Shown here one piece after another: positions 3,836-25,284 of a DNA stretch of 32,634 bases. Location of the stretch: positions 1 through 32,634 of the forward strand of contig RDXV01000043.1 of assembly GCA_004292695.1 (NCBI GenBank), written 5' to 3'. The DNA comes from Nostocales cyanobacterium (GTDB taxonomy: Bacteria > Cyanobacteriota > Cyanobacteriia > Cyanobacteriales > Nostocaceae). The notes beneath the pieces are model-generated. The model saw only the letters and a program-made list of their open reading frames with translations. It had not been told where the DNA came from and searched no databases. Made by a program: the position numbers and the translations under genes. Each line of letters opens with the position of its first letter. Positions within the stretch are counted from its first letter, which is position 1.

Positions 3836-3921
3836 GGTGGGTTGGCGAAAGTTTAACCCACCAATTAGAGGTTGTTTCAAAAGTTTTTAATATATCATTA
3901 GGAACTTTTAAAACATCCTCT
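3836..3921. terminator. Paired inverted repeats between convergent genes
   Basis: Two stems lie in tandem. The first has perfect 8-bp arms, ggtgggtt at 3836-3843 and aacccacc at 3855-3862. The second has 19-base arms with 17 matches, 3867-3885 against 3903-3921, and T/A-rich flanks. It sits between leuS (plus) and the minus-strand gene ending at 3921, so it could terminate transcription from both sides. Confidence 0.55.
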
Positions 3922-4328
3922 TAAATAACCCATTCATGATCAGGATCATCAAGGGCTGCTGTTACTGATTGCAAGTTAGCAAAATCTTTAAATGGACTAG
4001 ACTTTGCTATTTCTGTAATAGAATGCAAAACTAAAGTTAATTGGTTATTATCACCTGCTGCTATTGCCTGATCTACTTTTTCAAACAGAAAGCTAAAATT
4101 TTTAGCTCTTTCATCAAATGAGCTTTCAAGATATTTGAGGAGAATATCACGATCAGCTTTAATTTTGGTGATGGTTGCTTTTTCCCAGGCTGCTATACCA
4201 CGTCGTTTAGTTTTTTCTTCTTCTGCAACGATTTTGTATTCAGTGTAGGCTTCAACAATAGCCCGTAAGGTTTGAGCCGCATCTGCACCTGTACCTAATA
4301 CTTCTACATGAACTTTTTTGGCTGTCAT
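3921..4328 (-). CDS. Conserved small protein, third gene of glycine-zipper operon
   Basis: 135 residues, charged and mostly helical, with no membrane segment or signal peptide. The central stretch (about 40-95: EEEKTKRRGIAAWEKA then LLKYLESSFDERAKNF) looks like a long amphipathic helix or coiled coil. The end (SSPFKDFANL, DDPDHEWVI) is compact and acidic. I do not recognise a named family. It starts two bases after the stop of the gene at 4331-5086, and that junction repeats the one between the two upstream paralogues, so it is almost certainly the third gene of one operon. It may be a soluble partner or regulator of the two glycine-rich membrane proteins. Function is unknown. Confidence 0.75.
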   Translation of the reverse strand: MTAKKVHVEVLGTGADAAQTLRAIVEAYTEYKIVAEEEKTKRRGIAAWEKATITKIKADRDILLKYLESSFDERAKNFSFLFEKVDQAIAAGDNNQLTLVLHSITEIAKSSPFKDFANLQSVTAALDDPDHEWVI

Positions 4329-4330
4329 TT

Positions 4331-5086
4331 TTATTTACCTGGTAGAATGCGATATTTTTCGATAATGGTGACAGTCCCAATGTTAAGCTGTCTATCACTG
4401 TTTAATACTGGAGTTTTCAAAATTTCTACAAGCCCTTTGATTAGAGTTCCTGTTTGTCTAAATTTCTCCACATCTCTCTTTGCATTAAAAGGTTTAGCTT
4501 TAAGTTCATTAAAACTTTTAATAGCAAGATTATTGATTGATTCCAGTTCTTTATACAAATTATTAATTTTCTCCCGAATCTGGTTTATATAATCTAAAGC
4601 TATATAAATATCACTTGTGATTTGTTTAATTTGTGCTTCGCATTCAGCATCAACCTTTATTGAGTTTTGAGCTATAATTAAGGCTGGAATTATAGCAACA
4701 CCCCCTAGAATTGCAGCACCAAGAACTATACCACCACCTCCCGCTGCAAGTGAGCCACCACCCAGCCATGCTAACATTGGAAGTCCACCATATTTAGCAG
4801 CTTTAATACCTGCCTTTACATAATCTGTAAATTCTTCAATTTTTCCTGCTGGAACTTCAGAATTTTGGATTGGTGTCAATGAAAATTCTAAACTATCTAA
4901 AATTAGCTTTTCACTTTGGGAACATAGCCTTCCGGTAGACCTAACAAACTCTGCAAAATTATCAATTGTACCTATAATGACGTTGATTTGAAGTTGACTG
5001 TAATCCTGTGCTAACTTATTTATTGCTTCTTCTTCTATCTTTAACTTTTCAATAGCTTGTTTATATCTTTCTAGGAGATTTGTCAT
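4331..5086 (-). CDS. Glycine-zipper membrane protein, paralogue 2
   Basis: 251 residues. The N-terminal ~80 are helical and charged (coiled-coil-like). A glycine-rich hydrophobic stretch follows at about 105-140 (LAWLGGGSLAAGGGG, then an Ile/Leu/Ala run), able to form one or two membrane helices of glycine-zipper type. A second helical region comes next, with a conserved C-terminal block (KPFNAKRD, KFRQTGTLIKGLVEILKTP, EKYRILPGK). It is a clear paralogue of the 300-residue protein encoded at 5089-5991. The two are nearly identical over the last ~75 residues and in DNA there, but diverged in the N-terminal half. The shared architecture suggests a membrane-inserting or pore-type protein. The role is not established. 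Confidence 0.75.
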   Translation of the reverse strand: MTNLLERYKQAIEKLKIEEEAINKLAQDYSQLQINVIIGTIDNFAEFVRSTGRLCSQSEKLILDSLEFSLTPIQNSEVPAGKIEEFTDYVKAGIKAAKYGGLPMLAWLGGGSLAAGGGGIVLGAAILGGVAIIPALIIAQNSIKVDAECEAQIKQITSDIYIALDYINQIREKINNLYKELESINNLAIKSFNELKAKPFNAKRDVEKFRQTGTLIKGLVEILKTPVLNSDRQLNIGTVTIIEKYRILPGK

Positions 5087-5088
5087 TT

Positions 5089-5991
5089 TTATTTACCTGG
5101 CAGAATGCGATATTTTTCTATGACGTTTACAGTTCCAAGATTAAGCTGTCCATCACTGTTTAATACTGGAGTTTTCAAAATTTCTACAAGTCCTTTGATA
5201 AGAGTTCCTGTTTGTCTAAATTTCTCCGCATCTCTCTTTGCATTAAAAGGTTTAGATTCAAGTTCATTGAGACTTTTAACAGCATAATTATTAATAGATT
5301 CAAATACATCTCTTAATTCAGTAATGCGCTGTTTTACCTTTTGGGAATATTTTTTAGCCGTGTTAATTTCTGTAATAGCCTTATTTACTTTTGCTTCATA
5401 CTCTATGGCTTTTGTCATTGCTTTTTCACCTTCACGAGCCGCAAAAAAGCCGCCAATAGCCAAAGCTGGCAAAATGGTGATACCGCCTAAAACAACAGTA
5501 CCCAAAGCCATACCACCACCACCAGATGCGATCGCTCCACCGCCAAACCATGCCAACATTGCATTTGTAGCTGCTGCTCCACTGAGGCTTGAGATAGCTG
5601 TTCCAGTGCTTGCTACTCCTATGGATGTCGCAACAGTTATAGCACCACCGTAACCTGCTGCTGCTGCTCCAGCCGCTTTAGCACCAGCCATGAAATATTG
5701 TTCTGCTGCTATAGCCGCAGCTTTATATTCTTGTATTTGCTTAACTGTAAAGTCTATACCTTCTAAAAGCCGCTTCTCACTTTCAGAAGCCTTTCTCCCA
5801 GTACGCTCAACGAAATCAACAAATCTTTTAATAGTTTCTTTTATAACCTTTAATTGGAGTTCACCATACTCCTCAGCTAGTTTATTTGTTGCTGCTTCCT
5901 CGGTTTTTAACGACGCTAAGGCACGTTCATATCTTTCTTGAGCGCCTTTAGCCAGTTCATTGGCTTTCTGCCCTGGATAAAATGAAACCAT
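5089..5991 (-). CDS. Glycine-zipper membrane protein, paralogue 1
   Basis: 300 residues, first gene of the operon. An N-terminal helical segment (YERALASLKTEEAATNKLAEE) is followed by an Ala/Gly-rich stretch (about 95-135) and a second glycine-zipper hydrophobic region (LAWFGGGAIASGGGG, then VVLGGITILPALAIGG). The C-terminal half is a long helix pair with the same terminal block as the downstream paralogue. It carries an extra ~45-residue Ala-rich insert relative to that paralogue. An AAGGA Shine-Dalgarno precedes the ATG at 5989-5991. The gene is divergent from the HTH gene at 6101, sharing a ~110 bp promoter region. It may form homo- or hetero-oligomers with its paralogue at the membrane; this is inference. 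Confidence 0.75.
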   Translation of the reverse strand: MVSFYPGQKANELAKGAQERYERALASLKTEEAATNKLAEEYGELQLKVIKETIKRFVDFVERTGRKASESEKRLLEGIDFTVKQIQEYKAAAIAAEQYFMAGAKAAGAAAAGYGGAITVATSIGVASTGTAISSLSGAAATNAMLAWFGGGAIASGGGGMALGTVVLGGITILPALAIGGFFAAREGEKAMTKAIEYEAKVNKAITEINTAKKYSQKVKQRITELRDVFESINNYAVKSLNELESKPFNAKRDAEKFRQTGTLIKGLVEILKTPVLNSDGQLNLGTVNVIEKYRILPGK

Positions 5992-6100
5992 AAAGAAATC
6001 CTTAAATTCTCTAAAATTAGACTAACACTGCTGATTTTAGGTATGTACTAGCTAAGATTAGAAGTTAGGCTAGTATAAGGTTAGGAATTTTATATACACA

Positions 6101-6598
6101 ATGTTGATAATGGCATCTGTTGAAGAAAGATTTGCTCAGGCTGCTAAATACTGGGATTTGGAAACGCTGTATACTGATCTTGCATCTGCTAAGGGAAAAC
6201 GTCTTACACCTATTGAGAAACTGCATTTGCGGGGGTTACTTTGTGGTTACAGTCCTTCGGAAATAGCTGAGAGGCTGAATAAAAATGTTAAAGGTGTTGA
6301 AGTTGATCTATGTAACACTTTGTACAAATATGTGAAAAATCTAGTAGATAAATGTGATGAAAAAATAGAAAATTGGAGAAATATTAGTGAATGGCTTGAG
6401 GAAGCAGGATATAAAAGTCAGCTTTATATTGAATCAGAAAGTAGTGATGGTGTATCTATCAAATTATCGGTACAAAAAGCAAATATAATTCTTGAAAAAA
6501 ATCAATTAATAATTGACTTTAACCTCCGAATAGTTGCTCCTTCACCAGCAGAAAATCCGGTAATACAAGACTTTAACAGCAATGGTAAGTTGAATTAA
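6101..6598 (+). CDS. Small HTH protein, effector-associated type
   Basis: 165 residues. The segment LTPIEKLHLRGLLCGYSPSEIAERLN (about residues 35-60) followed by VEVDLCNTLYKYVKNLV is a typical sigma-factor/LuxR-like helix-turn-helix. Similar N-terminal modules precede NTPase, CHAT or WD40 effector domains in cyanobacterial conflict-system proteins, as I recall the family. Here the HTH is followed only by a short beta-rich tail, so it is free-standing. The ATG at 6101 may be replaced by the ATG at 6110, since no strong Shine-Dalgarno decides. It is divergent from the glycine-zipper operon and could regulate it, or be an adaptor. The 141-bp repeat begins about 35 bp after its stop. Confidence 0.7.
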   Translation: MLIMASVEERFAQAAKYWDLETLYTDLASAKGKRLTPIEKLHLRGLLCGYSPSEIAERLNKNVKGVEVDLCNTLYKYVKNLVDKCDEKIENWRNISEWLEEAGYKSQLYIESESSDGVSIKLSVQKANIILEKNQLIIDFNLRIVAPSPAENPVIQDFNSNGKLN

Positions 6599-6634: not shown

Positions 6635-6775
6635 ATAAAAATGAAAATATTATAGTCGGCTTCAGCCGACTTTTGCTATTAGACTGGGAATTAATTCCCA
6701 GGCTTTAAAAAATATGGTATCATTTAAAATATATGTATAAATATTATTACCTCAACACAAACGAGTTAGAATCAT
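6635..6775. repeat. 141-bp repeat, copy 1 (leader of prlF-yhaV)
   Basis: Aligns without gaps to 13078-13218 with 7 mismatches in 141 bases. It contains an 8-bp perfect hairpin (agtcggct 6654-6661 / agccgact 6664-6671) followed by TTTT, then an 18-bp perfect palindrome ctgggaattaattcccag (6684-6701), then an AT-rich promoter-like tract. The similarity stops at the ATG of prlF. The first hairpin plus TTTT could end transcription from the upstream HTH gene. Confidence 0.9.
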
Positions 6776-7076
6776 GAAAGTGAAACTTCGCAACAATGCA
6801 AACTCTTCTAGCACAGTTGTAAATCGTTCCAGCAAGTACATAGTTGTTTATCACAAAAAAGGAGAAACGCTAGGAATGAATAGAATATTGTCCCCAAATA
6901 TGGAAAAGCATTCTTTTGTTAAGGCGTTCTTAGATTTCCTTGCTAGAGATATCAAAAAAAATCCCAGCCATATTGAACCACTTACCGAAGAAATGTATCG
7001 TCGTGCATCTATTCTTACAGAAGGAATGGAAGCTGATCTGGATGAAGAATTACCAGAGGATTTCATGTTTGTATGA
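6774..7076 (+). CDS. prlF: PrlF/SohA-family antitoxin
   Basis: 100 residues, partner of the YhaV toxin encoded next. PrlF-type antitoxins neutralise YhaV by direct binding and repress their own operon. Visible support: the toxin immediately downstream is a clear YhaV, the genes overlap by 4 bases (ATGA), and the C-terminal half has the expected helical SFVKAFLDFLARD / LTEEMYRRASILTEGM pattern ending in an acidic tail (EADLDEELPEDF). The N-terminal part should hold the AbrB-like swapped-hairpin DNA-binding domain, although the motif is weak here. The operon leader is the 141-bp repeat, whose two palindromes are candidate operator sites. Confidence 0.8.
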   Translation: MKVKLRNNANSSSTVVNRSSKYIVVYHKKGETLGMNRILSPNMEKHSFVKAFLDFLARDIKKNPSHIEPLTEEMYRRASILTEGMEADLDEELPEDFMFV

Positions 7077-7546
7077 ATGTTAATGGGTGGACATTAAAAA
7101 TTCATCCTGCCTTTGGTGAAAAATATAAAAAATTAATTATTCAGGTTGAGGAACTTAAAGAAAAAGATTCTGAAGGATATCAGCAACATCCAGCTACAAA
7201 GTTTCTCAACAATATTAATGAGCTTATTTTTAGGAGAATACCTGAAGATCCTAGCGCACCAGAATTTAGGCAAGGTAAAACATTAGGAACAGATAAAAAG
7301 CATTGGTTTCGAGCTAAATTTAATAGAAGATTTCGTTTATTCTTTCGTTATAGCAGTACGGAAAAAGTCATTATTTATGCTTGGATAAATGATGAAAATT
7401 CGCTTAGGAAAGAGGGAGCAAAAACAGATCCATACAACATTTTTACTAAAATGCTTGCAAGTGGTAATCCTCCAGATAGTTGGGATGATCTTTTAAAGGC
7501 TTCAGACGATCTAGAATCTGTTTCAGAAGATGTTGATAATGGTTAA
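7073..7546 (+). CDS. yhaV: YhaV-family ribonuclease toxin
   Basis: 157 residues. YhaV is a RelE-superfamily ribosome-dependent or free mRNA endoribonuclease that inhibits translation. The sequence follows the family closely: NGWTLKIHP at the start, KDSEGYQQHPATKFL, PSAPEFRQGKTLG, HWFRAKFNRRFRLFFRYSS, then WINDENSLRKEGAKTDPY and FTKMLASGNPPDSWDDL. The basic block around RFRLFFRY carries the expected active-site Arg/Lys residues. It is intact and full length. The start codon overlaps the antitoxin stop (ATGA), giving translational coupling. A partial 'gtaggttgggtt' element follows the stop. Confidence 0.92.
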   Translation: MNVNGWTLKIHPAFGEKYKKLIIQVEELKEKDSEGYQQHPATKFLNNINELIFRRIPEDPSAPEFRQGKTLGTDKKHWFRAKFNRRFRLFFRYSSTEKVIIYAWINDENSLRKEGAKTDPYNIFTKMLASGNPPDSWDDLLKASDDLESVSEDVDNG

Positions 7547-7566
7547 TTTATAACTTAAATTACTCT

Positions 7567-7641
7567 TGTAGGTTGGGTTAAATTAAATGCAAACCCACAC
7601 ATTTTAAATTATTGGTTGATGTTGGGTTTTCTTACGTCAAC
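7567..7641. repeat. 'gtaggttgggtt' MITE-like element, truncated copy
   Basis: Starts with tgtaggttgggtt at 7567-7579 and runs through gatgttgggtttt and cttacgtcaac, matching the full copies at 8217-8298 and 14068-14149. It lacks the closing right arm (aacccaacctaca), so it can no longer form the long stem. It lies just after yhaV. Confidence 0.75.
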
Positions 7642-7675
7642 TAGATGGTCTTTGGCGAATTTATCATGTATAGCT

Positions 7676-7927
7676 TTAGCTTGCAACCTTTCCTAAAAAA
7701 CTGTCGAAAGAATTGGTATTGATTAACCCATTTTCTACCAAGATTCGACGTACAGCCACCAAATGCACGGGTTGAACATACGCCTGTTTTTCGTAAGCTG
7801 GTAAAATAACCAAAGTTCCTGACAATGGATATTGATAGATTTGTTGAGAACCTGTTGTTGGTACTTTTGTAAAACCTATCTTGAAAAGCAATTGTTCTAA
7901 GTCAGTAAACTGAATATCTCTAACCAT
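7676..7927 (-). CDS. HicA-like (YcfA) dsRBD-fold protein, catalytic His replaced
   Basis: 83 residues, the usual HicA size. It matches the HicA pattern: GFTKVPTTGS, then YQYPLSGTLVILPAY, then VHLVAVRRILVENGL. In active HicA toxins the motif is G-S-H, with His catalysing mRNA cleavage; here it reads GSQQ, so the catalytic His appears to be Gln. This suggests an inactive or repurposed member. No HicB partner is adjacent. The ATG overlaps the 3' end of a short upstream nuclease-fragment ORF. Family assignment is inferred from motif order. Confidence 0.6.
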   Translation of the reverse strand: MVRDIQFTDLEQLLFKIGFTKVPTTGSQQIYQYPLSGTLVILPAYEKQAYVQPVHLVAVRRILVENGLINTNSFDSFLGKVAS

Positions 7928-8075
7928 GATGATGATATGTAAAAAGAATTAAATCAAACCCATAATCATATTGAACTCTTTCTACGGAATAACCACATAA
8001 GAAAACATATCGTTCAACATGATTTACGCTCAAATCTGCTATTATATGTTCTCTAGGTCGTTTCTTTTTTGCCAT
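7920..8075 (-). pseudogene. N-terminal fragment of a DUF4365-like nuclease
   Basis: 51 residues beginning MAKKKRPREHIIADLSVN and containing ERYVFLCGYSVERVQYDYGFDL, then ending in HHHG. The DYGFDL motif followed by a hydrophobic strand resembles the first half of DUF4365-type PD-(D/E)XK proteins, in which a Lys-containing strand and a longer body follow. That remainder is missing, and the frame ends in the HicA-like gene's start region (8-base overlap, ATGGTTAG). It is most likely a truncated remnant. A short functional peptide coupled to the HicA-like ORF cannot be excluded. Confidence 0.45.
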
Positions 8076-8173
8076 TAGTTAAATTTGACTAAACTTTCGT
8101 GGATTGATTATACCAAAAAATGTTTTTCATAGTTTGAAATCATAACTATTAATACTACTTTTTAGTATTTGGT

Positions 8174-8221
8174 AAACAACTTACTAAATCTATGGCAATT
8201 TTGCAAGAATTACTGTTGTAG
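8174..8221 (+). pseudogene. 3' remnant of a PIN toxin gene
   Basis: Reads K-Q-L-T-K-S-M-A-I-L-Q-E-L-L-L-stop, matching the last residues (KQQLTKSMEILQELLL-stop) of the intact PIN toxin at 13503-14072. At DNA level the match continues straight into the MITE-like element that follows both stops. No further upstream homology is seen. This is a leftover of a second PIN gene, deleted except for its tail. Confidence 0.75.
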
Positions 8222-8298
8222 GTTGGGTTAAATGAAATGCAACCCAACACATTTATTATTGGTTGATGTTGGGTTTCCTTACGTCAACCCAACCTACA
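8217..8298. repeat. 'gtaggttgggtt' MITE-like element, full copy
   Basis: Perfect 13-base terminal inverted arms: tgtaggttgggtt at 8217-8229 and aacccaacctaca at 8286-8298, with inner copies of the same motif (gcaacccaacac, gatgttgggttt) that allow nested hairpins. It lies between the PIN remnant and the end of the minus-strand PIN-like gene, so it could also act as a terminator for both directions. Confidence 0.85.
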
Positions 8299-8303
8299 GA
8301 TTA

Positions 8304-8864
8304 CTATTTTTTCTCACAATAATTTATTAGTAGGCGATCGCTCTCTGTTTTAGCCCCATTTCTTAACCATTCAATCGGTTTTTCTTCTTCTACTTTATCT
8401 GGATTTACCCAAACAATATCCTTGAGTTCATCTATTTTTACAGATGCTTCACTAAAAAATTTTCTCGCAGTATTATCATCCAATGATATAACAATTTTAT
8501 CTGTTGCTAGTGCTGCTTCTATTAAACATAAATCTTTCGTCATTTCTGCTATTCTTTTATTACCAACATGAGCAGCAATACTTTCTATCTCAGTCCATAA
8601 ACTATCATTTATTGATATTTCTAAATAGTTCCATTTTTTCTTCGCTACCATTTGTCGTCGCCAAGTTAGGGCAAATTTCGATTGATGTTTGTCCCATTCT
8701 GCTTTTATAGCTGGTGTCATCACAACTTGATGACAAATTTTTAAAACTGCTTGTAGAAAGTCACGACAGTGAACTGATTTTGGATAAGTAGCACCTTCAT
8801 CTCCAGCAGCACGCGCTACAGAAGCATCAATTACCAAACGTTTAGAATATTCTTTATCTACCAT
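8304..8864 (-). CDS. PIN-like nuclease partner of the ABC-type ATPase
   Basis: About 186 residues. PIN-like features: an N-terminal strand ending in Asp (RLVIDASVARAAGDE, Asp at about residue 13-15), a central acidic position (TPAIKAEWDKH), then TKDLCLIEAALATDKIVISLDDN, which matches the third and fourth acidic positions of PIN domains (D-x-x-x-I-x-A, then D). PIN proteins are Mg-dependent RNases or DNases. It is downstream of, and overlaps by about 11-17 bases, the ATPase at 8854-10236, so the two are translationally coupled and likely one complex. The ATG at 8864 is preferred; an in-frame GTG at 8870 is also possible. The substrate is unknown. Confidence 0.65.
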   Translation of the reverse strand: MVDKEYSKRLVIDASVARAAGDEGATYPKSVHCRDFLQAVLKICHQVVMTPAIKAEWDKHQSKFALTWRRQMVAKKKWNYLEISINDSLWTEIESIAAHVGNKRIAEMTKDLCLIEAALATDKIVISLDDNTARKFFSEASVKIDELKDIVWVNPDKVEEEKPIEWLRNGAKTESDRLLINYCEKK

Positions 8865-10236
8865 GTACACCCTGCATTAAACGAGCTTCCGCAGCACTTA
8901 AATAACGATTTTCTAGCTGTAGAGATACATCACCAAAATCTTCTGGCCAATCTCCAAAAGCACCAGTTTCATCTAAATCAGCACTATTGATTTTAGTTAT
9001 ACCATTGTCTTGGCGTGTAAACCAATGCAGTTTTACTAAATCTGTTGATAAATTACCTTCTGCAACTAAAGATTGAATTGCTAAAATTAGGCGATCGCTA
9101 TGAGTTTCTATAACTACTTTTACACCGCGTTTTGCTGCATTAGCTAATATTTCTGCCATAGCAACTTGAGCGCGGGGGTGCAGGTGAATTTCTGGTTGTT
9201 CAATATATACTAATTGTCCTGGTTTTGCGACTAATAAAGCAACTAAAACAGGTAATGTTTGGGAAACACCAAAACCAACATCGGCTATATTAACCATATC
9301 ATCTTTATAATCTGAGTTTTTTGGTAAACGACCAACTCTCAATTCAACTTGTGTATCATTAACTTGTTTAGCCTGAACTTTACAAGTTAATCCTAGAGTT
9401 TCCAGGGCGTTAGCTAATTCATTCAGACGCTTATCTTTAGGTTTTTGCCAATGATTGATAATACTAGCAACATAATTTTCAAATGTACCAGGAAATGCAC
9501 TACCTATAGCTGTTGTTTTATAGTTACGCTCTGGGTTTCCTCTGAGTCCTGGTAAATGTATCATTTCTCTGATATATCTACCGAAGATTTCAGTGTTACT
9601 AGGATATATAGGACTTAAAAATGTATTACCGATAGTCAATTTTTGATTGTTTATTAAATCAAATAATGCAAATTCTAAAAAACACCTATTTCTATCAATT
9701 ATGAAAAATAATTTACCTTTAATTGGGTCTGTATTTTTAATGAAATCATACATTTCTTTATATTTATCTGGCAATATATTAATCACATCTCCTGGCAGTA
9801 TATCAGAGGACATTTCAATTACTTGGTCTTTTTCTTGAACTATTGTTTTCGTCAATTGAAGTCCTTGCCTGGGTAATTTTCTAAATACATTTTTTACATG
9901 ATCTCCATTTTCTATTTCAATCGAAATTGAGAATTGATCATTACGTTCTCTACCAGGTACATTAGAAATTAATTGTTCTGCTGAAGTAAATTTAACATTT
10001 GCTCCATCAAGTAACAAAGCACCTGGATCATAAGTTGCTTCTAGAGTTTGTTTCATCAACAATAAAGGTTGCATGATGCTAGATTTTCCTGAACTGTTAG
10101 CACCTGCAAGAATTGTTAATGGGCGTACTTCTATACTGCATTCATCATAAAGTGATTTATAACCACTGACAGAAATTTTTGTAATACCTTTGGCATTTTT
10201 ATTTTGATTGCTATTATTAGAATCAGATTGATTCAT
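8854..10236 (-). CDS. ABC-type (OLD/AAA_21-like, DUF3696-like) ATPase
   Basis: 460 residues, cytoplasmic. Walker A GANSSGKSS is at residues 45-53. An ABC-signature-like segment, DVGFGVSQTLP, precedes Walker B (LVYIEQPEIHLHP), followed by the H-switch (VVIETHSDRLI). The IEQPEIHLHP...ETHSDR combination is typical of SMC/Rad50/OLD-related ATPases that sense foreign nucleic acid or damage in defence systems. The C-terminal region (GAFGDWPEDFG) resembles DUF3696 proteins. GGGAGAG precedes the ATG, a good Shine-Dalgarno. It is coupled to a PIN-like nuclease. Together they resemble a two-gene ATPase-effector defence module; activity is inferred, not shown. Confidence 0.8.
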   Translation of the reverse strand: MNQSDSNNSNQNKNAKGITKISVSGYKSLYDECSIEVRPLTILAGANSSGKSSIMQPLLLMKQTLEATYDPGALLLDGANVKFTSAEQLISNVPGRERNDQFSISIEIENGDHVKNVFRKLPRQGLQLTKTIVQEKDQVIEMSSDILPGDVINILPDKYKEMYDFIKNTDPIKGKLFFIIDRNRCFLEFALFDLINNQKLTIGNTFLSPIYPSNTEIFGRYIREMIHLPGLRGNPERNYKTTAIGSAFPGTFENYVASIINHWQKPKDKRLNELANALETLGLTCKVQAKQVNDTQVELRVGRLPKNSDYKDDMVNIADVGFGVSQTLPVLVALLVAKPGQLVYIEQPEIHLHPRAQVAMAEILANAAKRGVKVVIETHSDRLILAIQSLVAEGNLSTDLVKLHWFTRQDNGITKINSADLDETGAFGDWPEDFGDVSLQLENRYLSAAEARLMQGVHGR

Positions 10237-10468
10237 AATTTGACTCTCCCTAATTTCAGGTTATACTATTATATATAATAACACTATGTGATTTCTAATA
10301 AGTTGCGTGTTATGAATACATATATAATATGTGCGTTTATGTAACCAAATTGATTTCTTTTTATAGATCACTACTGATAGATTTATGTAGTAGTTTCTCA
10401 TCAAGAGAGAAAAACACACCAACCTACAGACTATAATTGATAAATAACAAATATCCTTAATTAGCATT
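10237..10468. promoter_or_regulatory. Divergent AT-rich intergenic region with palindromes
   Basis: Separates the minus-strand ATPase operon from the plus-strand genes starting at 10469. It holds a 12-bp AT palindrome attatatataat (10268-10279), an imperfect acata/tatgt dyad near 10318-10332, and 6-bp arms actact/agtagt (10370-10375, 10389-10394). These are candidate operators or -10 regions. A short scrap matching the right arm of the MITE-like element (ccaacctacagacta) lies near 10420-10434. No gene is convincing here. Confidence 0.35.
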
Positions 10469-10831
10469 ATGACTACAGTTGCTATTGTACCTACATCAAA
10501 TGCCAGTGGCGAAAAATCCTATTGTGCTATTGCTGGAGATAAACAGTCTATTGGTAAAACAGCCGGTCAAGCTTTAGATGCGTTAACTCAACAATTAGGT
10601 GAAGTTGAATTTCGAGCATTATTAATTATTGATAATTTTCAACCTGATCAATTTTTTACTAGCGCACAACAACAGCGTTTATCTGAACTCATGACTATGT
10701 GGAGAAATGCAAGAGATCAAGGAAATTCATTTTCCAAATAATTACAAATTAAATTTGATAATTTTGTGAATCTTGAACTCAACGCTGCTACAGCTAGAAC
10801 TGCATCTTTAGTACAACAATTGAATCAATGA
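10469..10831 (+). pseudogene. Small conserved cyanobacterial ORF with in-frame stop
   Basis: The open frame gives 90 residues (MTTVAIVPTSNASGEKSYCAIAG..., GKTAGQALDALTQQLG) to TAA at 10739-10741. The same frame then continues without a shift to TGA at 10829-10831, encoding a sensible C-terminus (FDNFVNLELNAATARTASLV). A CAA to TAA change would explain it. From memory, cyanobacterial homologues run through this region, end in a similar Glu/Leu/Ala-rich helix, and often precede an HNH nuclease gene. None is found downstream here. It is thus probably a decayed half of a toxin-antitoxin or nuclease pair. A functional 90-residue product remains possible. Confidence 0.6.
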
Positions 10832-10854
10832 ATGCTGAGATTATTTCCGTAAAC

Positions 10855-10896
10855 TTGGCAATTATATAAACTAATTTGCGGTATAATAGGTATAAT
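10855..10896 (+). promoter_or_regulatory. Candidate promoter of the ATPase-Toprim pair
   Basis: Two TATAAT hexamers (10882-10887 and 10891-10896) lie 33-47 bases before the ATG at 10929. TTGGCA at 10855-10860 is a possible -35, but its 21-base spacing to the first TATAAT is long. Only the -10 elements are convincing. Confidence 0.35.
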
Positions 10897-10928
10897 TAAT
10901 TTATCAAGTTACAACAATAAATATATTT

Positions 10929-12110
10929 ATGCACATACAAAGAATCCAAGTACCTGATTTTCGGGCTTTGAAAAATGTAGATATTACTTTTGAGAAGGAA
11001 TTTACTCCGCGTATTTTTCCCCTTGGTAGTCTAAATGGAGGGGGTAAAAGTACGTTGTTACAGTTGATTTTTGTATTGTTGCATTGTTCTGTTAATCCTG
11101 ATCGGGTGGAGTTTATTCAAAATTTAATTGATGATTTTGAGGTTCATGATGAATCTGGTAAAAAGACTTTAGCTATTATTGACATTTGGGATGGTAGTAA
11201 AACCATACAACTTGATTTTTTTGTTTGTAATAAAACTTATCTTTTAAACTTATTACCAGAAGAGGAAAGATTACTTGCAATACTGGAAGGAACAGAAATA
11301 TTGGATCAATTAAATGTAATATTTAAGGAACATTTAAAAACAAATGATATAATAAAAATTTGTGATTTACACCGTATCAATAAAAATGAAAAAGGCTTAA
11401 TATTATGCCAATTAAATTGTGAAGAATTAATTGATCAACCATTTTTAAAGGAATTGTCAAATAAAATATTCCTAACTGCTCATATTTCACAAATATTCCT
11501 ATTTTTACAACCAGACAACAGAAAATCACTATTTAAAAAACAGGAAAATAATCAAACTAACTATTACCAACAAATTAAAACAGCTAATTCTAAACTACCA
11601 GGATTTTTTACTTATGACTTTCTAGCAATAGATATCCTCATTGAAGCATTCAAAAAAGCACGGGATGAAGATTTTAAACAAGCTGTAGAACAAGGGGGAA
11701 ATTATGGTAATAATTATGTAAAACTATTAGCTGAAATGAATAATGTTTTAACCAATAAGAAAATTAATGTACAATCAGATTTATCTGGAATCAATTTTAA
11801 AATTGATGGTGATGAAACAGAACTTTATCCAGAAGATTTAAGTCACGGAGAATTAAAAAGATTATGTATTTATATGTGGTTAAAGTATAATAATATAAAA
11901 GATGCAATTGTGCTGATGGATGAATTAGAAATATCATTTCATCCAGATTGGCAATATCAAATAGTTAGAGATTTAGAAGAATGGGGTGCGACTAATCAAT
12001 ATATTTTAGCTACCCATTCCTATGAAATTTGTCAAGCGGTTACACCTGCTCATGTTAAGGAATTAGAACCAAAACTAGAACCAAAATTACAATCAAAAAC
12101 AATTCAATAA
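10929..12110 (+). CDS. ABC-type ATPase of a two-gene ATPase-Toprim system
   Basis: 393 residues, cytoplasmic. Walker A GSLNGGGKST is at 33-42. The ABC signature LSHGELKRL is at 304-312, Walker B AIVLMDELE at 326-334 and the H-switch ATHSYEI around His363. The ~240 residues between Walker A and the signature are helical and poorly conserved-looking, with room for an arm or coiled coil. The ATPase is of the AAA_15/AAA_21/OLD group. It is followed 17 bases later by a Toprim-like gene, the arrangement seen in PARIS (AriA-AriB) and related defence systems. The C-terminus ends in a repetitive ELEPKLEPKL tail. Its role as a sensor that holds or triggers the nuclease is inferred from that analogy. 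Confidence 0.8.
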   Translation: MHIQRIQVPDFRALKNVDITFEKEFTPRIFPLGSLNGGGKSTLLQLIFVLLHCSVNPDRVEFIQNLIDDFEVHDESGKKTLAIIDIWDGSKTIQLDFFVCNKTYLLNLLPEEERLLAILEGTEILDQLNVIFKEHLKTNDIIKICDLHRINKNEKGLILCQLNCEELIDQPFLKELSNKIFLTAHISQIFLFLQPDNRKSLFKKQENNQTNYYQQIKTANSKLPGFFTYDFLAIDILIEAFKKARDEDFKQAVEQGGNYGNNYVKLLAEMNNVLTNKKINVQSDLSGINFKIDGDETELYPEDLSHGELKRLCIYMWLKYNNIKDAIVLMDELEISFHPDWQYQIVRDLEEWGATNQYILATHSYEICQAVTPAHVKELEPKLEPKLQSKTIQ

Positions 12111-12127
12111 TTAAATAAAAACAAAAT

Positions 12128-13081
12128 ATGAGTCTTAATGAAACTGAACTTAAAGAACATTGTTTAAATATTATTAAATCTGCGAGAATCAGAAATAGAA
12201 TAGTGATTCTCTGTGAAGGTGTGATTTCGGAAGTACAAGGGAGACGTTCACCGCAATTATACAAGCAAATGGAACAAATGCCAGATGCTAATTTTTATAG
12301 TGCTTGTGTACCTACATGGTGGAAAGAATACAGACCGCAATTTTTTAATTGTGGAGGTAGAAGTAGTGTCTTAAAGACATATTTTAAAATTCTAGAATTG
12401 CATAATGCTAACAGTAGTCAATCATTTTTAAATCCTGATCAACTTTTTGCTATTGTAGATTTAGATATTCAATCAGAAGAGATTAAAGAAGATTACAATT
12501 TTCAAAATACAGAAGATATTTTTTATCATCTTTATCATCAAGGAAATATCAATGAATCTAACACAGACTATCATCGTATTTGGGTGACTGGTTTAATTCA
12601 TAAAGAGGCATATTTTTTATCCCCTGGTATTCAGGAAGTTTTTGATAATCATTATGTTAGTTATCCTTTATATAAAGGGAATGCTGTGAATTTAGAAAAT
12701 ATTTACTTAGACATGGTTAATGATATGACTAATGATAAAGAATTACAAGATCATTGGTCAAGGGTAATTCAGAGAATTAGTTATCTTGCTAATTTGCATG
12801 GTGTGGAAATAGATAAATTTCAATATTGCTGGAATCAAGAGTATTGTAATTATCAAAGTTTATATGATAAGCATAAATTAATTAATGGGTTGTTAATGTT
12901 GCTGAAATCTAAGGAATATTGGAAACAGATTTTACCCGATAATAATTGGCCGCATTCGGAACATAAATTTAGAGAACAGTTATCTTTAAAAATTGGTCAA
13001 TTTTATTCAAAACAAGATGGAAATGTTGAAAATCATATTCCTTTTTTCTTTAAGACACTATATAAATTAATTGAAAAATAA
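12128..13081 (+). CDS. Toprim/DUF4435-like putative nuclease effector
   Basis: 317 residues, unrecognised as a named family. Toprim-like landmarks occur in order: a hydrophobic strand ending RIVILCEG (Glu30-Gly31), then LFAIVDLDIQ (Asp111, Asp113), then WVTGLIHKEAYFL (Glu160), which parallels the E...DxD...E arrangement of OLD/DUF4435 Toprim nucleases. Between the first two lies a Trp/Cys-containing segment (ACVPTWWKEY, FFNCGGRSS). The second half is helical without clear motifs. The gene starts 17 bases after the ATPase stop, with no strong Shine-Dalgarno, so coupled expression is likely. A cleavage effector role (tRNA, RNA or DNA) is a hypothesis. A 141-bp repeat begins at its stop codon. 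Confidence 0.6.
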   Translation: MSLNETELKEHCLNIIKSARIRNRIVILCEGVISEVQGRRSPQLYKQMEQMPDANFYSACVPTWWKEYRPQFFNCGGRSSVLKTYFKILELHNANSSQSFLNPDQLFAIVDLDIQSEEIKEDYNFQNTEDIFYHLYHQGNINESNTDYHRIWVTGLIHKEAYFLSPGIQEVFDNHYVSYPLYKGNAVNLENIYLDMVNDMTNDKELQDHWSRVIQRISYLANLHGVEIDKFQYCWNQEYCNYQSLYDKHKLINGLLMLLKSKEYWKQILPDNNWPHSEHKFREQLSLKIGQFYSKQDGNVENHIPFFFKTLYKLIEK

Positions 13082-23550: not shown

Positions 23551-23886
23551 TTAGGCTACTCCATAATCTGTATAGGGACGTTTATAAGGAGGATGTAAAC
23601 CTAGTATGATATCTTCTTTGGGTACTCCCATTTTTACTAAATCTGCGGCGGGATTTTCTTCTGTTAAATTTTGTTGTAGCCAAATTTTGCCGTTTTTAAT
23701 ATCTAGATGGATGATAGTTATATACACGCGGTTTAAATGTTCCCATCCCACGTTCATCCATTGATAATGGTCATTTTCTGTATCAAAAATGAGTTGTACA
23801 TCTACTTCTTCGGTGGAAAGATCATCTTTGGCGTAATTTGTGAGTAAGGTTTTAATGTATTCTCGATATTGGGTTATTTTATCCAT
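23551..23886 (-). CDS. xisI: XisI protein (fdxN element excision controlling factor-like)
   Basis: 111 residues with the family markers DKITQYREYIKTLLTNYA, LIFDTENDHYQWMNVGW, IHLDIKNGKIWLQQN, and the C-terminal MGVPKEDIILGLHPP...RPYTDYGVA. XisI was described with XisH as controlling excision of the Nostoc/Anabaena fdxN element, but most cyanobacterial copies are stand-alone. The biochemistry is not established. Its ATG overlaps the end of the upstream xisH by 13 bases, as in the second pair. XisI homologues may act as partners of the nuclease-like XisH. Confidence 0.9.
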   Translation of the reverse strand: MDKITQYREYIKTLLTNYAKDDLSTEEVDVQLIFDTENDHYQWMNVGWEHLNRVYITIIHLDIKNGKIWLQQNLTEENPAADLVKMGVPKEDIILGLHPPYKRPYTDYGVA

Positions 23887-24290
23887 TTGATAATTACCTC
23901 ATTCTCTGGTTCATATACCACTAATAAAACTTGATACCTTTTGAGAGCGATTTGTGTAAACTCAAGTTGAAAAAATGTCTGATACACTTCAAATGGAACT
24001 GCCATATATAGTATACGATCTGGTTCAATAGCTTCTAAAGCAAGACGATAACTGAGAAACTGACCCAAAGCAGCGTAAAAATCGGTAATAGCCGAAGGAT
24101 TAATAAAACTTTTGATTTCTACTGCTATTTTCTCATTTTCTCTTTCAGCAGCAATTACTTTTTCAGCACCTAAGTCAATTTTAAATTTGACGTTACCAAA
24201 TTTGAATTGTAGTGGATCATCTGTAATTAACCACTGCTCTTTTTGTAAAGCGGTTTTTACTGCTTCGTGAAATATATCTTTTGCAGACAC
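23874..24290 (-). CDS. xisH: XisH protein, PD-(D/E)XK nuclease-like
   Basis: 138 residues, full length. SAKDIFHEAVKTALQKEQWLITDDPLQF opens it. IDLGAEKVIAAERENEKIAVEIKSF holds the Asp...Glu-x-Lys pair of the PD-(D/E)XK superfamily. AALGQFLSYRLALE and LYMAVPFEVY follow. The start is GTG (cac at 24288-24290) and matches the family's MSAKDIFH opening. It overlaps the xisI gene by 13 bases. It may cut DNA, or act only as a scaffold for XisI. In this window it is the intact counterpart of the internally deleted copy at 25272-25397. Confidence 0.88.
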   Translation of the reverse strand: MSAKDIFHEAVKTALQKEQWLITDDPLQFKFGNVKFKIDLGAEKVIAAERENEKIAVEIKSFINPSAITDFYAALGQFLSYRLALEAIEPDRILYMAVPFEVYQTFFQLEFTQIALKRYQVLLVVYEPENEVIIKWIK

Positions 24291-24942: not shown

Positions 24943-25284
24943 CTAAGCCACAGCAAAATCAGTATACTGCCTAATGTTTGGATCATGAAAAGCTAAAACA
25001 ATATCTTCTTTAGGAACACCAGCTTTAACTAAATCTGTAGCAATACCATTTTCTGTCCAATCTTCCTCAATCCAAAATTTACCATCTTTCAAACGTACAT
25101 AAACCGTCATTCCTGTAATTCTTTCGCCATTTTGCCAGCCCAGATTCATCCAAATATAATGACCATTTTCTGCATCTATAATTAAAAATGTTTCCATATC
25201 TTTTTGAGGACGGTGCTGACAAATTTCAATATATTTATTTAAAATTTTTTTGATCAATTTTGGATATTCATTTAATTTATCCAT
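24943..25284 (-). CDS. xisI: XisI protein, second copy
   Basis: 113 residues with MDKLNEYPKLIKKILNKYIE, LIIDAENGHYIWMNLGW, VYVRLKDGKFWIEEDWTE and LVKAGVPKEDIVLAFHDPNIRQYTDFAVA, clearly paralogous to the first xisI (23551). It is intact. Its expected partner xisH is reduced to a 41-residue deletion derivative immediately upstream, so this XisI is orphaned. It may now act with the XisH at 23874. Confidence 0.9.
   Translation of the reverse strand: MDKLNEYPKLIKKILNKYIEICQHRPQKDMETFLIIDAENGHYIWMNLGWQNGERITGMTVYVRLKDGKFWIEEDWTENGIATDLVKAGVPKEDIVLAFHDPNIRQYTDFAVA

Follow-up and report, generated by a model that had tools for sequence, protein, structure and literature searches.

A variant of the PDC-M09A gene family with a small partner gene and a second, divergent head in a Nostocales cyanobacterium

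The window, by which I mean the whole 32,634-nt stretch analysed (contig RDXV01000043.1 of assembly GCA_004292695.1, a Nostocales cyanobacterium), carries a four-gene locus, H-A-B-C, whose gene A almost certainly belongs to the PDC-M09A family. PDC-M09B is absent from the locus, which therefore counts as a C-type variant of this family and not as a member of PDC-M09. The family was already catalogued; what is new here is C in the place of PDC-M09B and a chimeric second head, B. I propose that the locus encodes a membrane-acting, probably anti-phage module in which C, a soluble helical protein, engages the tails of A and B. Taken whole, this reading is tentative, and I hold it at slightly less than even confidence. 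The parts of the locus are as follows.

5089..5991, minus strand: gene A, 300 aa, PDC-M09A-like; helical N-arm, core at 106-185, second helical arm, tail at about 236-300
4331..5086, minus strand: gene B, a 251-aa paralogue of A; divergent head and core, tail nearly the same as that of A
3921..4328, minus strand: gene C, 135 aa; predicted four-helix bundle, conserved partner of A
4329..4543, minus strand: 3' part of B (the tail) with stop codon and 2-nt spacer, one copy of a 215-bp block in which A and B are 90% identical
5087..5301, minus strand: 3' part of A (the tail) with stop codon and 2-nt spacer, the second copy of the 215-bp block
6110..6598 (alternative start 6101), plus strand: gene H, divergent from A; helix-turn-helix-like through matches below curated cut-offs only
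5992..6109, no strand: the H/A intergenic region, conserved in the four genomes compared

A, B and C are read from 5991 to 3921. An earlier, sequence-only reading of the window had placed three open reading frames (ORFs) here; their coordinates and order are borne out, all three on the minus strand. So is its remark that the junctions are almost alike: A-B and B-C are both AGGTAAATAAAAATGACA, with identical spacers. At the end of C lies an imperfect 25-nt inverted repeat (window 3867-3921, 84% complementary), either a terminator or a small repeat element.

The A family and its partner C

Both A and B match the PADLOC model of PDC-M09A (E=1e-32 and E=2.8e-7, respectively), with residues 11-250 of A aligned to positions 4-255 of the 282 in the model. 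Pfam and NCBIfam give nothing above their curated cut-offs for A, B or C, and PHROGs no match better than E=0.002. An iterated profile run across the fetched loci gathers 61 A-family rows in 58 loci, or 56 loci once two duplicates (L066, L104) are dropped. Against profile A1 the score of B is 366.5 bits, where 50 local shuffles reach 30.8 at most, B being itself part of A1. The fair test comes from 13 distant A-like rows outside A1, which score 35.9-157.3 bits and each beat their own 50 local shuffles (best 13.9-37.6). The likeness of A and B thus goes beyond composition.

The family is widespread. PDC-M09A is matched at E<=1e-5 in 34 of 292 sampled genomes of the phylum and in none of 14 control genomes, and B as a query finds relatives in 14 of 60 genomes, the window genome included. 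The nearest named orthologues of A are those of Iningainema, Aphanizomenon, Anabaena and Nostoc. Further members sit on plasmids of Proteobacteria, Streptomyces and Deinococcus, to which a distant A query adds plasmids of Klebsiella, E. coli and Photobacterium. In part of the 34 genomes the match is to the hydrophobic stretch only, inside proteins of 600-900 aa. Nine loci with large cyanobacterial proteins of this kind were fetched, and seven match the A-family profile (E 4e-15 to 2e-21), the stretch scoring 48-69 bits where shuffles reach no more than 18.5; L119 and L120 give no match to it. Two cyanobacterial proteins of 650-700 aa (L114 2132-4126, L115 1911-4001) have the same stretch, partly repeated, and, by eye, a twin-arginine-like start.

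C is the neighbour that stays with A. A gene of its family lies within 4 kb of A at 37 of the 56 A loci, a count that a six-frame search raises to 39 (adding L030 and L065); the same search finds C in L034, whose A fragment falls outside the 56. Usually C starts 2 nt after A. C and H apart, no neighbour family occurs in more than six of the 56 loci. The arrangement does vary. In Tychonema and Microcoleus a TPR-cluster gene stands between A and C (L064 and L069, both 8998-10446; L067, 8998-10389; TPR scanned in L064), and in Deinococcus (L092) C lies upstream of A with TerB in between. A related TPR-cluster gene comes right after C in Iningainema (L058 9353-10657). A 60-genome search yields 16 C-like loci, 12 of them with A or an A fragment alongside; the four without A are short pieces (G003, G033:C149, G015) or carry an in-frame stop (G030). 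C also occurs on two Priestia plasmids, and the one inspected has no annotated A within 8 kb and none by profile. A-C is an old, tightly spaced pair, present in cyanobacteria and, outside their phylum, on a few plasmids.

The tail at the C-terminus of A goes together with C. A tail profile built from the 15 rows of A1 was scored on 57 A rows, with two fragment and two duplicate rows set aside. Tail and C occur together in 35 rows, window A and B included; two have the tail with a C remnant (L096, L097), two the tail without C, five C without the tail, and 13 neither. Six of these 13 lie upstream of another partner: PDC-M09B in L094 and, with two rows, L036; BnzB in L110 and, again with two rows, L111. 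The other seven are in L087 and L088 (before a PDC-M40B-like protein), L089 (same order), L086, L091, L095 and L109. Several points weigh against a link between tail and C. L107 and L040 have an A with the tail and no recognised C; the five rows with C and without the tail are distant plasmid copies (four of Proteobacteria, one of Deinococcus); and the A rows are related by descent, so that the counts are not independent. Of those five, the A frame of Deinococcus L092 ends early, and some of the tails that fail the profile look related by eye. Because the tail tracks C, it may be the site where C acts. That C does act through the tail I consider possible, a shade short of probable.

A small conserved partner that adjoins a protein with a glycine-rich hydrophobic core might also be an antitoxin, with A and B the membrane toxin and H the regulator, and the C remnants without A at four of the 16 C-like loci would suit such a pair. 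Less in keeping with it are A frames that stay open without a recognised C (L107, L040) or with a C remnant (L096, L097), which suggests that C is not strictly needed. Moreover, C lies after the supposed toxin, and other relatives of A pair with large proteins, not with C. I judge a toxin-antitoxin system to be very unlikely.

The head and tail of gene B

The sequence-only reading held that a gene was duplicated together with its spacer. This is right for the tail and the spacer, which are recent, and not supported for the rest. At the 3' ends of the two genes 193 of 215 bp agree, stop codon and 2-nt spacer included, so the near-identical C-terminal block described earlier is there; in the best-aligned 5' stretch identity is 66%, and over 80 bp of core 73%. 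Synonymous divergence (dS) is 0.24 across the last 65 codons of B, as against 1.07, 1.21 and 2.77 in the three segments upstream, that is, the head, core and second arm. The trees of head and tail disagree as well. In a quick tree of 55 heads, A and its close orthologues form a clade of 16 rows from which B is excluded (SH-aLRT 84, not starred), whereas in a careful tree of 28 tails B joins the A of the window and that of G032 (100/99). G032 is the nearest relative found. Its order is H-A-C, its A differs at 14 of 903 nt and its C at 4 nt, and it has no counterpart of B, which is seen in the window genome only. B was either gained in the window genome or lost in G032.

Given a tail with low dS, upstream segments near saturation and trees that conflict, B is best read as a divergent head joined to a tail that was recently homogenised with that of A. 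Since only tail and spacer are recent, this was no simple recent duplication; gene conversion or recombination would have copied tail and spacer between A and B. The rest of B is old, foreign or fast-evolving, one of the three. Two observations weigh against so clean a division: dS in 30-codon sliding windows drops once upstream, to 0.52 (B 61-90), and B is a long branch in the quick head tree (end branch 1.4), its row flagged as long and of odd composition. Tandem A genes occur in other lineages, upstream of PDC-M09B (L036 7064-8980) and of BnzB (L111 218-2429).

A bolder view is that of a modular effector, in which C reads a constant tail, recombination joins varied membrane heads to that tail, and one regulator serves several effectors. 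B would then be an old or foreign head, with a freshly homogenised tail, placed between A and C. I consider this distinctly unlikely.

The hydrophobic core and its likenesses

At the centre of A is an uncharged, Gly/Ala-rich hydrophobic run of 80 residues (106-185), and at that of B one of 45 (99-143), shorter by 35, with best 19-residue Kyte-Doolittle means of 2.13 and 2.69. The AF2 model of A (mean pLDDT 51) puts long helices at 6-64 and 184-245, flanking a hydrophobic part that it leaves unresolved. Much of the sequence-only reading finds support in this and in what precedes: its coiled-coil N-terminus (in a model otherwise poor), its hydrophobic glycine-rich core of membrane type, its paralogy and operon layout, and its conserved small helical partner. 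To judge from the core, A and B somewhat more likely than not act at the membrane. It counts against this that the core cannot be made out in so poor a model of A, and that the model matches no PDB fold below E=0.4. Searched by sequence with a close profile, the PDB gives two weak matches, neither meaningful. The wide profile A7 gives 198 at E<=10, among which coiled coils and viral fusion proteins rank first (best E=5e-4); I take these for an effect of composition, a glycine-rich hydrophobic stretch with coil, and not for kinship.

Helix, hydrophobic tip, helix is also the layout of bacterial dynamins, as PMC4159319 describes them, so A might be the trunk and paddle of a dynamin without its GTPase. 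The A of Vibrio does match PADLOC LeoBC (E=7e-7). The likeness of A to LeoABC is one of layout only (helix, hydrophobic glycine-rich tip, helix); A and B differ in having no GTPase domain, and neither has a Pfam match to the dynamin GTPase. The LeoBC lead, followed as a dynamin trunk, was not upheld against Dynamin_N proteins of the same genome. These, from four contigs, score at about the level of shuffles: the best score, 2.5 bits, is reached by 15 of 100 local shuffles, and the most unusual, 1.3 bits, by 5 of 100. In hhalign, run against these same-genome Dynamin_N proteins, the probability is at most 2.7%. Dynamin descent seems highly improbable.

Long helices around a hydrophobic part might suggest instead an exported alpha-pore-forming toxin of the ClyA or xenorhabdolysin type, whose binary subunits would be A and B. 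A has a weak match to xenorhabdolysin A in NCBIfam (E=0.042), whose 13.1 bits lie far below the cut-off of 125, and no PDB match by sequence or fold is meaningful (pLDDT of the A model, 51). Since B is found in the window genome only, a binary A/B toxin cannot be the norm of the family. I give this idea almost no credence.

The sequence-only reading had also named tape-measure proteins as one family to which the homologues might turn out to belong. This origin I reject: there are only weak coiled-coil matches (PHROG 1942 against A, E=0.0025) and no phage context. Relatives of A were found in neither phages nor viral contigs, those of C in no viral contigs, and a wider search of viral contigs with two distant A queries gave none.

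C is modelled as a four-helix bundle (pLDDT 72). Its fold matches are not significant, the best in Foldseek being an entry for FliS (E=0.93). By VIA designed four-helix bundles reach the best Z, 10.9; the flagellar export chaperones (FliS) stand at about 8.3-8.8, below the level treated as telling for helical bundles. FliS is a chaperone that binds the C-terminus of flagellin. The modelled likeness of C to it is only a hint.

Defence surroundings and a proposed mechanism

The sequence-only reading did not recognise the layout. That no longer holds, for A matches PADLOC PDC-M09A and has relatives in several candidate or named defence operons. Its proviso, that the homologues might turn out to be a known family, came true by half: the family is catalogued, with candidate defence status by computation only. 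Relatives of A pair with PDC-M09B in L094 and L036 and with BnzB in L110 and L111. The likeness to PDC-M09 is that window A covers most of the PDC-M09A model and that H stands, divergently, beside an A-M09B pair at one locus (L094). The window locus differs in having C in the place of M09B, the tail, and a second A-type gene. The PDC-M09B model (PDLC04408) has no match in the window genome (G000), nor any to A, B, C or H. As to Bunzi, BnzB has A-family genes beside it or close by in L110 and L111, and one A of L111 weakly matches BnzA (E=1e-4). BnzA has no match at E<=1e-5 in the window genome, and among A, B, C and H, the four proteins searched, there is no match to BnzB and no TerB. TerB does occur directly before A in L087 and L092 and, with a match below its curated cut-off, in L090; PMC10952713 lists it for Shango and Bunzi.

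In Proteobacterial operons A is followed by a protein of about 540 aa (PDC-M40B-like in the two tested) and YkgJ, some with WYL or TerB. The A-family protein comes first, as in the window; the difference is that C was not found in these A-YkgJ operons, its place being taken by a larger partner and a protein with a cysteine cluster. YkgJ also comes after A-C in L083, L084 and L085. Literature on cyanobacteria, TerB and YkgJ together was searched for and none found. On enterobacterial and Photobacterium plasmids (L153, L154, L155, L157) A precedes a protein (about 523-568 aa) that annotations often call a cobalamin adenosyltransferase, with YkgJ in three of the four stretches and WYL upstream in L153 and L154. 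This is a candidate defence operon.

Around the A genes of 11 plasmid loci, a count that stands without a matched control, seven have clear defence-type genes within about 8 kb. The neighbours include CRISPR Csc3, SIR2, AbaSI and SAVED (one locus each), a restriction-modification operon directly upstream (one locus) and a Dnd-associated methyltransferase (two loci); a borderline locus has DUF3320, WYL and PD-(D/E)XK genes. For cyanobacteria, 90 of 236 ORFs near 31 A loci, three of these 90 lying in the window, were compared with 90 of 165 control ORFs, taken from 20 arbitrarily placed regions in 15 genomes. At E<=1e-20 the count of PADLOC families is 81 near A and 32 in the control. Among the 25 listed for each, those near A include DpdF, PtuA, CBASS cyclase, NsnA, PDC-S02 and PDC-S03, and also DndA/SspA, possibly an ordinary desulfurase; those of the control include Cas12f-like, PD-T4-6, MzaA and PDC-M38B. 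I regard this excess near cyanobacterial A loci as suggestive without being strong.

More defence-like genes lie within the window, at 6774-12110.

6774-7546: PrlF/YhaV toxin-antitoxin pair
8304-10236: AAA ATPase with a PADLOC match to NsnB of Menshen (6.4e-62), and an overlapping 188-aa ORF without a family match in Pfam or PADLOC
10929-13081: PtuA/AriA-like ATPase (1.7e-20 / 3.3e-18), then a 317-aa ORF to which no family gives a meaningful match

The layout of the last two genes resembles that of PARIS-type pairs. Apart from one short piece, almost nothing of 6776-13077 is matched in the compared G032 locus, and this part is likely a variable defence island. Elsewhere in the window, the ORFs at 23551-24290 and 24943-25284 look like XisI/XisH.

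Several points stand against defence. PDC-M09 is itself a computed candidate, and its name is absent from the literature searched. Three of the 11 plasmid loci have no clear defence gene; what they show is limited to a RelE toxin, transposases or Ter genes. As a test, the comparison of neighbours is weak, with one sampling, redundant families and at most two members listed per family. Many chromosomal copies of A-C sit beside ordinary genes. Such plain surroundings are what a cellular module for membrane organisation or stress would show, in which A and B tether or scaffold, C regulates, and phage play no part. Six loci share a homologous downstream gene (about 475-512 aa) and five of these a further one, and several copies thus look as if kept vertically at a single chromosomal site; and A is under purifying selection, the 14 nt differences from G032 changing 2 aa. 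Such a module fits poorly with the patchy spread (14 of 60 genomes with B as query, 34 of 292 with PDC-M09A), the carriage on plasmids across phyla, the decayed remnants, and PDC-M09B and BnzB as partners of relatives. I consider it unlikely. A role in defence, on what the sequences offer, may equally well hold or fail.

Expression may be the business of H. It starts 118 bp from A and is divergent from it at 14 of the 56 A loci (in L099 as a 76-aa piece only). The region between, 5992-6109, has a mean column identity of 88% in four genomes and contains a 10-nt inverted repeat (6011-6020/6031-6040), possibly an operator. In a scan for promoters and terminators, promoter-like sites did not exceed those of shuffles (5 against a mean of 8.6). 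An H-type domain also starts a 549-aa NTPase-like protein of the same genome (L164 1474-3123, E=1.7e-30), which I take, from its sequence, to be NB-ARC-like.

The proposed anti-phage module would work as follows. A and B would reside in the cell membrane, or enter it, by their hydrophobic stretch and oligomerise through their helical arms. C, a soluble helical bundle, would bind the shared tails and hold or trigger the complex, with B as a second head served by the same C, and H would control expression. Upon a trigger such as phage infection, the complex would perturb or clamp the membrane.

One family of membrane proteins with exchangeable partners ties together PDC-M09, the Bunzi-like operons and the WYL/YkgJ plasmid operons, all candidates for defence. 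A-C is a conserved unit of two genes, small enough for direct test, and the link between tail and C predicts binding that depends on the tail. The head swap in B, if true, would show a route by which such systems diversify.

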